This document shows, in pieces, positions 29,605-34,591 of a stretch of 36,639 nucleotides of DNA. Under the pieces are notes generated by a model. It did not search any database. It had not been told where the DNA came from and saw nothing but the letters and a program-made list of their open reading frames with translations. The position numbers and the translations under genes are program-made. This stretch comes from an uncultured Oscillospiraceae bacterium (GTDB lineage Bacteria; Bacillota; Clostridia; Oscillospirales; Oscillospiraceae). Within the stretch, counting starts at the first letter, position 1, and each line of letters starts with the position of its first letter. The stretch lies in the NCBI GenBank assembly GCA_947625355.1, contig CANQOA010000017.1:1-36639 (forward strand). The letters run 5' to 3'.

Positions 29605-30708
29605 TCACTGCCGGCGCAGCTCCCGGCGGGACACGTCGTCACGAATGGCCTGGTACAGCGCCGCCGTCAGCGGCACACCCAGCAGCATGCCCAGCACGCC
29701 GAACATGGCGCCGCCCACGGTGACCGCCGCCAGCACGAAGATGCCCGGCAGGCCGATGGAGGAGCCCACCACCCGGGGATAGATCAGGTTGCCCTCCAGC
29801 TGCTGGAGCACCACGATGTACACCAGGAACCAGATGGCCTGCTTGGCGGACACGGACAGGATCATGAACGCGCCCACGCCCGCGCCGATATAGGCCCCCG
29901 CCACGGGGATCAGGGCCGTCACCCCCACCAGGGTGCCGATCATGGTGGCGTAGGGCATCCGGAACAGCAGCATCCCGCCGATGCACAGGCTCCCCAATAT
30001 CACCGCCTCGGTGCACTGGCCCACCACATAGTTCCTGAAGCTCCTATTGAGCAGGCCCAGCACATACAGCACCCGGTCCCGCCACACCGCGGGCAGATAT
30101 GCGTCCAGCACCCGACGGCACTGCCGGCCCAAGGTCTCCTTGCCCAGCAGCAGATAGATGGCGAAGATGAGCCCGAACAACACCGTCACCACCCCGGAGA
30201 ACAGGCCCGACACCGCGCCCACCGCGCCGCTGACGCCGGACGCCAGGATGCCCTGGGCCTTTTCGATGAGCTCGCTCCAGTTCAGATTCGCCAGCCGCTG
30301 CTCCATATCCGCCGGGATCAGCTGCTCCGCCAGCGGCTGCTCCAGCAGCCACTCGATGGCCGCCGGCGCCTGGCCGATCAGGGCCTTGATGCAGGCGGTC
30401 AGCTCCGGCACCACCAGCAGCACCACGCCCGCCAGCACCGCCACCACGCTGAGGATCGCCCCCACCATGCACACCGGCCGCCGGGCCTTGATCAGCCCCT
30501 TGTTGGCGGTCCTGGGGAACCACAGCCGCTCATAAAAGCCCATCAGGATGTTGATCACATAGGCGATGGCCCCGCCCAAAAACAGCGGCAGGCACGCCCC
30601 CAGCAGCACGGCGATGAGCTTGGCCGCCACAGGCCAGTAGCGGATCGCCAGATACAGCACGAACGCCGTGATCCCGATCTGCAGGAATGTCCTTCTCGTG
30701 AGCTTCAT
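29605..30708 (-). CDS. AI-2E family transporter (membrane permease)
   Basis: A 367-aa integral membrane protein of the AI-2E (PerM/YtvI) family. There are about seven to eight helices, a long soluble stretch in the middle (EWLLEQPLAEQLIPADMEQR), and the conserved C-terminal block VGVTALIPVAGAYIGAGVGA, then QQLEGNLIYPRVVGSSIGLP. Family members export or exchange small solutes; autoinducer export is shown for few, so the substrate is open. The frame extends to 30780, but ATG 30708 follows AGGGAGGGAG and gives MKLTRRTF. It begins 13 bp after the stop of the S24 repressor gene and has no promoter of its own, so it is probably co-transcribed with it. Confidence 0.9.
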   Translation of the reverse strand: MKLTRRTFLQIGITAFVLYLAIRYWPVAAKLIAVLLGACLPLFLGGAIAYVINILMGFYERLWFPRTANKGLIKARRPVCMVGAILSVVAVLAGVVLLVVPELTACIKALIGQAPAAIEWLLEQPLAEQLIPADMEQRLANLNWSELIEKAQGILASGVSGAVGAVSGLFSGVVTVLFGLIFAIYLLLGKETLGRQCRRVLDAYLPAVWRDRVLYVLGLLNRSFRNYVVGQCTEAVILGSLCIGGMLLFRMPYATMIGTLVGVTALIPVAGAYIGAGVGAFMILSVSAKQAIWFLVYIVVLQQLEGNLIYPRVVGSSIGLPGIFVLAAVTVGGAMFGVLGMLLGVPLTAALYQAIRDDVSRRELRRQ

Positions 30709-30721
30709 AGGCTCCCTCCCT

Positions 30722-31396
30722 TTACAATATCCGTCCGAACACCCGCAGCTGGGCGGGCTCCGGGATGGGGATGTCCTCATAGTTGGGGTTCAGGCTGTGC
30801 AGGCTTATACCCTGGGGCCGGTCCCGGAGGATCTTGATGTAGCCGCTGCCCTGCCAGGAGAAGAGCCCCGCCTCTCCGTCCGCCACCGTGGGCGTCTGCT
30901 TCACATACACCACCTGGCCGTCGTGGTACCGGGGCTCCATGCTGTCCCCCGCCACCCGCACGGCGAAATCCGCCTGGCGCGGGGCGCCGGCCGCGTCCGT
31001 CCACTGGTAGTCCCCGTCGTCCAGAAACTGGCCGGGACCGGCGCTGGCCGCCAGGGTATAGAGCCGGATGGCCCGGCCCCGCTCCGGCTTGGGCTCATAC
31101 AGGCCGCTGCACCGCAAAAGCTCCGCGTACTCCGCCAGCTTCTGCCGGCCGACGGCGTCCAGGCCCTTTCCCAGGCCGCCGCCCATGAACTCTCCGGAGA
31201 TGTCCGCCACCTCCAGCGCCTGGCACGCCAGCAAAAACTGCCGCGCCGAGGGGAGCGTGGCGCCCTTCTCCCATTTGGAGAGCGCCTTGTCCGTGACCGG
31301 TTCCCCCAGCGCCGTCAGCCGCTGGGCCAGCTCCTTCTGGCTCAGCCCCGCCTGCTTTCGCAGCGCGGCCAGCTTTCCGCCGATGTCGTCCATCAT
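30722..31396 (-). CDS. Cro/CI-type HTH repressor with S24 (LexA-like) self-cleavage domain
   Basis: A 224-aa DNA-damage-type repressor. The N-terminal XRE helix-turn-helix (AGLSQKELAQRL, TDKALSKWEKGATLPSARQF) differs from the winged helix of LexA. The C-terminal S24 peptidase has a likely cleavage bond Ala119-Gly120 (LAASAGPG), catalytic Ser152 in VAGDSMEPRYHDG and Lys188 in GYIKILRD. Spacings of 33 and 36 residues match LexA. It is divergent from the Y-family polymerase gene, with a cluster of dyads between, so it probably represses both promoters until RecA-stimulated self-cleavage. ATG ATG at the start makes residue 1 or 2 possible; AAGGGGG precedes it. The gene continues into the permease gene. 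Confidence 0.9.
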   Translation of the reverse strand: MMDDIGGKLAALRKQAGLSQKELAQRLTALGEPVTDKALSKWEKGATLPSARQFLLACQALEVADISGEFMGGGLGKGLDAVGRQKLAEYAELLRCSGLYEPKPERGRAIRLYTLAASAGPGQFLDDGDYQWTDAAGAPRQADFAVRVAGDSMEPRYHDGQVVYVKQTPTVADGEAGLFSWQGSGYIKILRDRPQGISLHSLNPNYEDIPIPEPAQLRVFGRIL

Positions 31397-31426
31397 GGCG
31401 CGCCCCCTTCCGTTTTGGTGATTTCC

Positions 31427-31455
31427 AGTATATAGGAACAGGAGAGAAAACGCAA
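31427..31455 (-). promoter_or_regulatory. promoter of the S24 repressor gene
   Basis: Minus-strand TTGCGT (31450-31455), 17-bp spacer, TATACT (31427-31432). An AGAGAAA half-site (31443-31449) lies in the spacer next to the -35. Confidence 0.75.
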
Positions 31456-31487
31456 GAGGTTTCTCTTAATAAGAGAAATTTTCTCTT
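31443..31487. promoter_or_regulatory. operator cluster between repressor and polymerase genes
   Basis: TTTCTCTT (31460-31467), AAT, AAGAGAAA (31471-31478), T, TTTCTCTT (31480-31487) form two overlapping perfect dyads sharing the middle arm. A fourth AGAGAAAA half-site is at 31443-31450. The outer sites reach the -35 boxes of both divergent promoters. The S24 repressor encoded alongside is the obvious candidate binder. No Bacillus-type LexA box (CGAAC-N4-GTTCG) is present. Confidence 0.75.
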
Positions 31488-31514
31488 TACTTCTCCAAAC
31501 AGGCGATATATAAT
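31486..31514 (+). promoter_or_regulatory. polymerase gene promoter (leaderless)
   Basis: TTTACT (31486-31491), 17-bp spacer, perfect TATAAT (31509-31514). The expected +1 is 31521, which is the A of the start codon. Confidence 0.7.
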
Positions 31515-31520
31515 GGCCGC

Positions 31521-32741
31521 ATGAAGAGAGTCATCCTACATTCGGATATCAACAGCTTCTATGTGAGCGTGGAGCTGCTGGAGCGGCCGGAGCTGCGGGG
31601 CCGGCCGGTGGCGGTGGGCGGGGACGTGGAGGCCCGCCACGGGATCATCCTGGCCAAGAGCGAGGAGGCAAAGCGCTGCGGCGTAAAGACGGGCATGGTC
31701 CTGTGGCAGGCCCGGCAGCTGTGCCCGGAGCTGACGGTGCTGCGGCCCCACTATGAAAAATACGAGGCCGTCTCCCGTGCCGCCCGGGCCATCTACGCGG
31801 ACTTCACCGACCGCCAGGAGCCCTTCGGGCTGGACGAGAGCTGGCTGGACATCACCGGCTGCCACGCCTGGAAGGACGGCTATCTGGCCGCCCAGGAGGT
31901 CCGCCGGCGGATGCGCCGGGAGCTTGGCCTGACGGTGAGCGTGGGGGTCAGCTGGAACAAGGCTTTCGCCAAGCTGGGCTCCGACTACAAAAAGCCCGAC
32001 GCGGTGACGGAGTTCCGCCGGGACAACTTCAAAGAGCTGGTCTGGCCGCTGCCGGTAGGGGCTCTGCTGTTCGCGGGCCCCGCCTCCTGCCGGGCGCTGG
32101 GGGCCATGGGCATCCGCACCGTGGGCCAGCTGGCCCTGGCGGACCCGGAGACGCTGCGCCTGCGGCTGGGAAAGGGCGGGCTCACCCTCTATCGCTACGC
32201 CAACGGCTGGGACGAGAGCCCCGTGCGCCGGTTCGACTGCCCGCCGGAGGTCAAGAGCATCGGCAACTCCACCACCCCGCCCCGGGACCTGCACTGCGAG
32301 GCGGATGTGCGCCGGGTGATGCTGGCGCTGGCGGAGGAGGTGGCCGGCCGGCTGCGGGCGGAGCGGATGCTGGCCGGGCAGGTGGAGGTCGCGGTGCGGG
32401 ACGCGGTGAGCCTGCGCTGGACCGGCCACCAGGCAGTGCTGGACCGGCCCACGGACATCACCCGGGAGCTCTTCCAGCGGGCCATGGCCCTGTTCGACCA
32501 GCTCCATACCTGGCCGGCGGCCCTGCGGGGGCTGGGTCTGCGCACGGCGGCGCTGCGCCCCTCCGGCGGGCCGGAGCAGATGGACCTGTTCACCGACTAT
32601 GCCGCCCGGGACGGCCAGCGGCGCATCGACGCAGCGGTGGACGCCATCCGGGCCAAATACGGCAAGAAGGCCATCCGCTACCTGGGCGCCGCCAAGAGCG
32701 AGGAACTGCCCCACGAAAAATGCTCCTTCGCGGAGCGGTAA
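31521..32741 (+). CDS. dinB: Y-family translesion DNA polymerase (DinB/Pol IV type)
   Basis: Error-prone polymerase copying damaged DNA; 406 aa. Catalytic residues sit in VILHSDINSFYVSVELL (first Asp) and FGLDESWLDITG (Asp-Glu). The little-finger domain ends with GGPEQMDLFTDY, where QMDLF is a beta-clamp binding motif. Expression is probably controlled by the divergent S24 repressor through the operator cluster. No Shine-Dalgarno is visible before the ATG, and the -10 box ends only 6 bp upstream, so the mRNA is probably leaderless. The radical SAM gene follows after 21 bp with a strong ribosome binding site and is surely in the same transcript. Confidence 0.93.
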   Translation: MKRVILHSDINSFYVSVELLERPELRGRPVAVGGDVEARHGIILAKSEEAKRCGVKTGMVLWQARQLCPELTVLRPHYEKYEAVSRAARAIYADFTDRQEPFGLDESWLDITGCHAWKDGYLAAQEVRRRMRRELGLTVSVGVSWNKAFAKLGSDYKKPDAVTEFRRDNFKELVWPLPVGALLFAGPASCRALGAMGIRTVGQLALADPETLRLRLGKGGLTLYRYANGWDESPVRRFDCPPEVKSIGNSTTPPRDLHCEADVRRVMLALAEEVAGRLRAERMLAGQVEVAVRDAVSLRWTGHQAVLDRPTDITRELFQRAMALFDQLHTWPAALRGLGLRTAALRPSGGPEQMDLFTDYAARDGQRRIDAAVDAIRAKYGKKAIRYLGAAKSEELPHEKCSFAER

Positions 32742-32762
32742 AACGATCTTGAGGAGGCCGCC

Positions 32763-33629
32763 ATGCACTTTGTCAGCGCCAAGGGCATCCTGTCCGCCCA
32801 AAACGGCATGAACATCTACCGGGGATGCACCCATGGGTGCATCTACTGTGACAGCCGCTCCGCCTGCTACCAGATGCCCCACGCCTTCGAGGACGTGGAG
32901 GTGAAGCAAAACGCCCCGGAGCTGCTGGACCTGGCCCTGGCCAGGAAGCGCCGGCCCTGCATGGTCGGCACCGGGGGCATGAGCGACCCCTATATGCCCT
33001 GCGAGGCGGAGCTCGCTCTCACCCGCCGGTGCCTGGAGATCATCGCGCGGCACGGCTGCGGCGCGGCGGTCCAGACAAAATCCGACCTGGTCCTGCGGGA
33101 CATGGACCTGTTCGTCCGCATCCGGGACCGGGCCAAATGCGTCGTGCAGATGACGCTGACCACCGCGGACGACGCGCTGTGCCGGGTGGCGGAACCCAAC
33201 GTGTGCCCCACCGGCCGGCGGTATGAGGCGCTCAAAGTCCTCCAGCGGGAGGGCATCCCCACGGTGGTGTGGATGACGCCCCTGCTGCCCTACATCAACG
33301 ACACGGAGGAAAACGTCCGCGCCATCCTGGACCTCTGCTTCGACGCCGGCGTGCGCGGCGTCCTCACCTTCGGCTGCGGCCTGACCCTGCGCCAGGGCGA
33401 CCGGGAATACTACTACGCCGCCCTGGACCGGCACTTTCCGGAACTGAAAGAGGTTTACATAAAAAATTACGGCAATGCCTATGAGCTGCCCTCTCCCCGC
33501 GCGGCCCGGCTGCGGGAGCTCATCGTGACCGCCTGCCGCGCCCATCATGTCATGACCGACACCGACGAGATCTTCGCCTGGCTGCGCCATCTCCCCGATC
33601 CGTACCCGCAGATGCGGCTCCCGCTCTGA
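32763..33629 (+). CDS. SPL-family radical SAM protein
   Basis: A 288-aa radical SAM protein of the COG1533 (SplB-like) type. The cluster motif is CTHGCIYC (CxxxCxxC) in NIYRGCTHGCIYCDSRS. GTGGMSDPYMPCEAELALTR and VQMTLTTADDALCRVAEPN are typical of this group. Spore photoproduct lyase is the named member, but this protein is shorter and lacks recognisable SPL substrate features, so the reaction is unknown. Location directly after dinB, in a unit under an S24 repressor, suggests a role in DNA damage; that is inference. GAGGAGGCC precedes the ATG at 32763. The gene ends the unit; a promoter for the next gene follows. Confidence 0.85.
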   Translation: MHFVSAKGILSAQNGMNIYRGCTHGCIYCDSRSACYQMPHAFEDVEVKQNAPELLDLALARKRRPCMVGTGGMSDPYMPCEAELALTRRCLEIIARHGCGAAVQTKSDLVLRDMDLFVRIRDRAKCVVQMTLTTADDALCRVAEPNVCPTGRRYEALKVLQREGIPTVVWMTPLLPYINDTEENVRAILDLCFDAGVRGVLTFGCGLTLRQGDREYYYAALDRHFPELKEVYIKNYGNAYELPSPRAARLRELIVTACRAHHVMTDTDEIFAWLRHLPDPYPQMRLPL

Positions 33630-33730: not shown

Positions 33731-34591
33731 ATGAAGAAGATCTCCGTTTCCCTGCTCTGTTCTCTCCTCTGCTTCCTGCTCTGCATGCCGTGCGCCGCGC
33801 TGGCGGAGGGGCTGGGCGGCTTGGGCGGCCTGATCGGCGGCCTGCCGGACCTCCAGGACACCCCCAGCGGCGATCCCGGCGTGCTGCCCGACCCGGCGGA
33901 GCTGCTGGACGACGAGGGCACGCTGTACGCCGAGGACTATAACTTCGCCCCGGATTTCATCTGCAGCGTGTACACCTACGACCCGGCGGACGACGATTTC
34001 CTCAGCGATTATCTGGACCTGGTGGAGGCCAACGGCTTCACGGCGACCGAGACCACGGTGGAGGGCTATCAGGCCTACAGCCTGGAGTACGACGACCTGG
34101 GCGCGCTTCTGCTGCCCGATTACGACGGCGTGATGATGCTGCTGGTGCAAAACGGCATCGTGTTCGGCGAGCCCCTGCCCGAGTATTACCTGCGCATGAC
34201 CTACAACGGCCGGGAGGTCCTGACGGACGAGATGGACTTCATGCGCTCCTACGACGCCTATCAGTACAAGTTCGAGTACTTCGACACCGAGCAGAGCCCC
34301 TCCTATTTCGAGATGCGCTTCCCCAAGTCCATGCGCGCCGGGGACGACTACACCTGGACGCCGGATTCTCCCCCGGAGTATCTCTACGTATATACCGGCA
34401 GCATCCTGATGAACTATCAGTCCTTTACCCGCAACGGCGAGTGGGGCGGCAGCGCAGACTACTTCCAGATGAAGATCGTCACCAAAGAAGAGACTCCCCA
34501 GGGACTGCTCATCGAGGGCCGCTTCAGCGCCGTGCTGGACTATTCCTCGATCACCATCGAGAACGGTTCCTTCCGCATCCTGATAAAGTGA
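33731..34591 (+). CDS. secreted protein of unknown function
   Basis: A 286-aa protein with a signal peptide (MKKISVSLLCSLLCFLLCMP, cleavage probably after ALA near residue 25). A Gly/Leu-rich segment (GLGGLGGLIGGLPDL) and an acidic mature part rich in Tyr, Asp and Glu follow. FEYFDTEQSPSYFEMRFPKS and a beta-rich end (LLIEGRFSAVLDYSSITIEN) suggest a beta-sandwich. No lipobox, sortase motif or SLH domain is seen, so it may be released. I recognise no family. GAGGAG precedes the start, with its own promoter and a terminator: a single-gene unit. Confidence 0.8.
   Translation: MKKISVSLLCSLLCFLLCMPCAALAEGLGGLGGLIGGLPDLQDTPSGDPGVLPDPAELLDDEGTLYAEDYNFAPDFICSVYTYDPADDDFLSDYLDLVEANGFTATETTVEGYQAYSLEYDDLGALLLPDYDGVMMLLVQNGIVFGEPLPEYYLRMTYNGREVLTDEMDFMRSYDAYQYKFEYFDTEQSPSYFEMRFPKSMRAGDDYTWTPDSPPEYLYVYTGSILMNYQSFTRNGEWGGSADYFQMKIVTKEETPQGLLIEGRFSAVLDYSSITIENGSFRILIK

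Follow-up and report, generated by a model that had tools for sequence, protein, structure and literature searches.

In Francisella, the S24 repressor FddR and dinB form a divergent unit with a palindromic operator, which makes up a compact one-target network in the absence of canonical LexA. The architecture has been demonstrated by EMSA, and FddR has been reported absent outside Francisella (PMC13148647). HdiR, a phage-type S24 repressor of Streptococcaceae including Lactococcus, controls itself and umuC in lineages without LexA and responds to heat as well (PMC8565304). The non-canonical LexA proteins of Bacteroidetes are S24 repressors that control dinB/umuC and splB (COG1533) in a large regulon with operators GGA-N5-TCC and CTAA-N5-TTAG (PMC8565304). 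In several phyla, SplB-like radical SAM genes have been reported, or are predicted, to belong to SOS regulons (PMC3323433, PMC8565304, PMC3765255).

The locus described here resides in a stretch of 36,639 nucleotides (the window) that represents the entire contig C17 of a draft genome (2.1 Mb, 97% complete) of an uncultured Oscillospiraceae bacterium, the closest named relatives of which are the 'Lapin' Oscillospiraceae assemblies. A phage-type S24 repressor gene stands divergent from dinB, a palindromic predicted operator is found in the region shared by both genes and a canonical LexA is apparently missing, just as in the FddR-dinB case, but the operator differs (GTG-N11-CAC for FddR versus TCTC-N7-GAGA here), the repressor belongs to a clostridial family and a permease gene is located behind it (Table 1). 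Judged by its description, the HdiR-umuC system is similar in that a phage-type S24 repressor is set over itself and a Y-family polymerase without LexA being present; HdiR controls umuC, whereas the facing gene is dinB in our case. A non-LexA S24 repressor over a Y-family polymerase gene is also the feature shared with Bacteroidetes, though the regulon is large there and one site per genome is found here. With adjacent genes and palindromic predicted operators in their shared region, the locus qualifies as an FddR/HdiR-like unit, and on comparative grounds we regard it as a further case of the FddR-dinB/HdiR-umuC kind with a new repressor family and a new operator. It would add a clostridial family, studied in a genus apparently devoid of canonical LexA, to the lineages in which a phage-type S24 repressor is placed over an error-prone polymerase.

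Table 1. Features of the repressor/dinB locus and its neighbours (positions in the window)
Feature	Position	Strand	Basis
AI-2E family permease	29605..30705	-	PF01594, synteny
S24 autopeptidase repressor, Cro/CI-type HTH, 224 aa	30722..31396	-	PF00717 E=4e-21, HTH_31/HTH_3
Likely repressor promoter TTGCGT-N17-TATACT	31427..31455	-	sequence and genus alignment
Predicted operator O2 TTTCTCTTAATAAGAGAAA (perfect TCTC-N7-GAGA dyad)	31460..31478		footprint, shuffles, genome search
dinB promoter TTTACT-N17-TATAAT, spacer contains operator O1	31486..31514	+	promoter scan, 25/25 genus members with the pair
Predicted operator O1 TCTCCAAACAGGCGA (TCTC-N7-GCGA)	31492..31506		phylogenetic footprint, shuffles
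dinB-type Y-family DNA polymerase, 406 aa	31521..32741	+	PF00817 (IMS), PF11799 (IMS_C)
Radical SAM protein, 288 aa	32763..33629	+	PF04055, CX3CX2C, synteny, 35-member alignment

The repressor, the polymerase and the permease

Ala119-Gly120, Ser152 and Lys188 are all present in the repressor, as numbered in an earlier note on this DNA, and the cleavage bond and the Ser-Lys dyad proved invariant in 40-41 of 41 aligned relatives. Going by its S24 residues and its DNA-binding domain, the protein can be placed in the broad self-cleaving S24 class (LexA/CI/HdiR-like). An assignment as canonical LexA was rejected, because the protein reaches 22.8 bits with TIGR00498 against a cut-off of 110.95 and its HTH is of the Cro/CI type. 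LexA above the curated cut-off was found in none of the 35 genus genomes by a scan that detected B. subtilis and others as controls, and the stronger sub-threshold matches in the genus align to the S24 part of the model only. The LexA candidate of the source genome (G000:C7, L220:1249-1875) turned out to be an S24 protein carrying HTH_3; this second S24 repressor of 208 aa, whose S24 part resembles genes in several genus members, is probably phage- or element-borne.

The product of dinB combines IMS domains with the Asp, Asp-Glu catalytic residues of the Y-family (DinB/UmuC), namely Asp9, Asp105 and Glu106, which are conserved in relatives. It also features a QxxLF clamp-binding-like motif at residue 353, and comparison with the PDB led to 7yll, a DNA polymerase IV (E=2e-48).

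Close relatives of the repressor (76-97% identity) are encoded in 24 other genus genomes out of 35 searched, one of them truncated at a contig end. The divergent S24/dinB arrangement is present in all 24 and in 25 of the 35 genus genomes altogether. Elsewhere in the family it is present in about eleven further genera (at least ten): we found it at 8 of the 15 dinB loci from other genera that were read, representing seven genera, by coordinates in G052, G077 and G154, and in G028. When 394 genomes of the order were searched at E<=1e-25 and up to seven best candidates per genome were scored, the repressor matches among these candidates were confined to the same family. The comparative evidence thus lends good support to an old and conserved S24/dinB pair. 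Among the genus members lacking the pair, five encode a distantly related S24 protein (31-38% identity), and in four of these its gene adjoins one for a umuC-type polymerase, so this S24 family is linked to Y-family polymerases in such members as well; the arrangement is seen in L195:6308-8660 and in L165-L167 and L170.

A gap of 16 bp separates the repressor stop from the start of the permease gene on the same (minus) strand. The earlier note was right about the gene, the product of which scores 155 bits with the AI-2E family model PF01594 (cut-off 34.3), but counted it into an interval, 30722-33629, that does not contain it. It follows the repressor gene in all 22 other genus members whose contig extends that far and accompanies the divergent pair in none of the other-genus loci examined; the proposed tie to the repressor therefore stands within the genus and fails beyond it. 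Going by synteny, the permease is a companion at genus level only, and its expression would be expected to follow that of the repressor.

Predicted operators and a model of regulation

The control region shared by the repressor gene and dinB comprises 124 bp here and 117-132 bp across the genus. AGAGAAA dyads had been pointed out before in this region, and they resolve to a 15-bp motif, TCTC-N7-GAGA. In the alignment of 25 genus regions, a dyad such as O1 lies within the spacer of the dinB promoter, between -35 and -10, and a second dyad, TTTCTC-N7-GAGAAA, is situated 30 bp upstream. Searching 33 homologous control regions for T[CA]TC-N7-G[ACT]GA yielded 65 sites in 32 of them, a count in which the genus regions, being related, are not independent, versus 0.49 sites on average and at most 3 in dinucleotide shuffles of the same regions; the dyads are thus real. 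When the spacer was varied in T[CA]TC-Nn-G[AC]GA, a length of 7 gave 53 genus and 12 family matches, the next best spacer 11 and 2. TCTC-N7-GAGA reappears in hard-to-align control regions of other genera. G166 possesses the S24/dinB pair with zero matches to the strict motif, and the region of G028 contains relaxed dyad forms only.

The perfect 19-bp copy at O2 is the sole exact match in the genome, and a single one-mismatch site (C5:62251) was dismissed as a further operator in view of its unrelated context. A perfect match to the composite of promoter and operator occurs exactly once in each of the 25 genus genomes that contain the pair and is absent from the ten that lack it, while the few remaining matches in the 35 genomes each have two to three mismatches. 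With one such composite site per genome, the regulon probably consists of little more than this divergon. The candidate repressor promoter scores below the thresholds of the promoter scan; its AGTATA and GCAA blocks are kept across the genus. A promoter-like site, TTGACAGCTCGCTTTAAGCGAGATATAAT, was also noted in G226 (C89:2641-2669) near another S24-type gene (C89:1926-2285) and is possibly of the same design, with arms GCTC-N7-GAGC.

It appears highly probable that the locus is a divergent autoregulated switch, in which the S24 repressor controls itself and dinB via the two predicted operators. Conserved operators and synteny support this reading of the S24 repressor as autoregulatory and set opposite a Y-family polymerase gene, and to that extent the earlier interpretation. 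The repressor would bind both TCTC-N7-GAGA operators, one of them inside the dinB promoter, and would thereby shut its own gene and the facing dinB. When DNA is damaged, RecA filaments would stimulate the repressor to cut itself at the Ala-Gly bond, both promoters would open and translesion synthesis would be switched on until intact repressor re-accumulates. If the model is true, induced mutagenesis in these gut Clostridia runs at least partly through the S24/dinB switch. The motif TCTC-N7-GAGA provides a concrete operator candidate that is testable by gel shift.

Phage-type repressors can be relieved by antirepressors. It is conceivable that the repressor responds not to RecA filaments but to heat, as HdiR also does (PMC8565304), to an antirepressor or to another stress, and that induction of dinB is not a DNA-damage response. 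We hold this to be distinctly improbable: the cleavage bond and the Ser-Lys dyad are nearly invariant across the repressor family, and a translesion polymerase gene is the only regulated neighbour that has been kept outside the genus as well.

The radical SAM gene behind dinB

The radical SAM gene starts 21 bp past the dinB stop on the same strand and is equipped with an AGGAGG Shine-Dalgarno sequence; this spacing and the divergence of repressor gene and dinB agree with the coordinates given previously. PF04055 and a CX3CX2C motif at residues 22-29 place the product in the radical SAM superfamily, within a family of hundreds of clostridial members (77% mean column identity in a 35-member alignment). 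PA0069 and Rv2578c (NCBIfam) are the nearest named models and match all 35 members scanned; the protein studied here stays under both curated cut-offs (136.8/360 and 128.2/430 bits, respectively). Relative to PA0069/Rv2578c, the protein is best described on these models as belonging to a separate clostridial subfamily. A literature search for Rv2578c in combination with DNA damage retrieved no paper, and neither the protein sequence nor the 35-member profile found a sequence match in the PDB.

Membership in the spore photoproduct lyases (SPL) was rejected, as neither PF20903 nor TIGR04070 matches the protein, while the solved SPL 4fhc, used as a positive control, scores 631 and 510 bits on these models. 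Profile alignment with SPL resulted in an hhalign probability of 1.2%, which is unreliable for placing an equivalent of the H-donor C140. A fold search with an AlphaFold2 model (pLDDT 77, pTM 0.81; residues 1-44 mostly poor) returned only radical SAM proteins, among which SPL (Z 14.0) was tied with PFL-activase, lipoyl synthase and NifB. Since the SPL family models failed and the fold match was tied, 'SPL-type', as the protein had been called, is a superfamily statement only: radical SAM fold and CX3CX2C are shared with SPL, but the family models fail.

The flank of dinB can be read in 21 other genus members, in which the contig continues for some 0.7 kb or more beyond this gene; 20 of them lack the radical SAM gene at this place, and its position behind dinB is restricted to the source species and its 96% sister G213 (contig C63, evidently the same contig as record L002). 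By this distribution it is a local, lineage-specific and recent addition behind dinB. That all four genes make up one conserved damage-response cassette is therefore very improbable; they do adjoin here and in the sister species, but with the radical SAM gene missing from nearly all readable flanks and the permease missing outside the genus, synteny contradicts a conserved unit. The self-contained cassette of the earlier note does not survive this comparison, and its suggested check, co-occurrence of the four genes with the dyads, holds for the S24/dinB pair and the dyads in 25 of 35 genus genomes and fails for the radical SAM gene. Rather, units of this type are seen to acquire additional genes: the permease across one genus, the radical SAM gene in two species, and SRAP together with a radical SAM gene in a further genus.

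We give about even credence to the radical SAM gene being a passenger: as an accessory gene that moves about, it would have ended up behind dinB and be transcribed only by read-through. It is scattered through Clostridia and patchily distributed, occurring in 45 of 200 family genomes at E<=1e-30 and at high similarity in 5 of 35 genus genomes, two of them with the gene behind dinB and three, from other species, with the gene elsewhere. One of these unlinked copies was read and is preceded by a gene for an iron alcohol dehydrogenase; the other two seem to have the same coding sequence immediately upstream. The operator is absent at the loci of the other close homologues in the genus. Radical SAM neighbourhoods in general are diverse and without conserved partner, and in G222 and G224 dinB is directly followed by the gene for the 286-residue protein that comes after the radical SAM gene here. 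GC and GC3 of the radical SAM gene, on the other hand, are like those of its neighbours, which does not point to a very recent acquisition from a foreign source, and repeated linkage to S24/Y-polymerase genes also speaks against a mere passenger. A tree unites the five genus copies, but with such weak support (0.66) that it cannot separate vertical descent plus relocation from transfer.

The linkage just mentioned bears on a possible role of the radical SAM protein in the damage response, as a partner that would reverse lesions or repair nucleotides and would have joined S24/Y-polymerase units more than once. The 137 unique radical SAM loci include four with a Y polymerase within 3 kb (source lineage, G028, L007 and G106) and three with an S24 gene, G106 being the one without; the S24 model used for this count was built from sequences of the same analysis. 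In G028 (C90, L228:6-2687), dinB is divergent from an S24-SRAP-radical SAM cluster with overlapping SRAP and radical SAM genes, and the dinB/S24 gap contains the relaxed dyads TCTGATTATTTGAGA and TCTAATTTTATTAGA (TCTG-N7-GAGA and TCTA-N7-TAGA). In L007:2442-6864, a radical SAM homologue is divergent from an S24-umuC operon that consists, by eye, of genes for S24, a small protein, UmuC and a small YolD-like protein. The independent association with S24/Y-polymerase units in these two other lineages, one of them with SRAP, makes a repair role possible, and in the source species and its sister the position behind dinB implies that the radical SAM gene should be induced together with dinB. Given the SplB-like genes in SOS regulons elsewhere (PMC3323433, PMC8565304, PMC3765255), a damage-linked COG1533 gene is also less unexpected than had been thought. 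Still, a Y polymerase is nearby in only four of the 137 loci, and the 400 kb of sampled background, in which no S24/Y-polymerase linkage was seen, are too small a sample for a significant contrast. Furthermore, the family models exclude SPL, and neither the S24 operator nor the GAAC-N4-GTTC LexA box is in excess in the regions upstream of 109 radical SAM homologues, for which reason membership of the gene in such a regulon elsewhere was rejected. We therefore consider a damage-response partner rather unlikely. It is also unlikely that the protein repairs lesions in DNA or nucleotides by a new reaction and has been drawn into S24/Y-polymerase units several times, so that direct repair would be induced along with bypass.

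Homologues of the radical SAM protein were also found in a plasmid collection (17 records) and a phage collection (4 records), the best with about 60% identity. One of them, 60% identical, is encoded at MT838272.1:3827-4666; this faecal record of 5.5 kb is named 'Bacteriophage sp.', lacks annotation and may be a bacterial fragment. The protein encoded 3' of the radical SAM gene in the window (33731-34591, 286 aa) has no match in Pfam or NCBIfam; it features a signal-peptide-like N terminus, and in four genus members its gene has been retained next to either dinB or the radical SAM gene.
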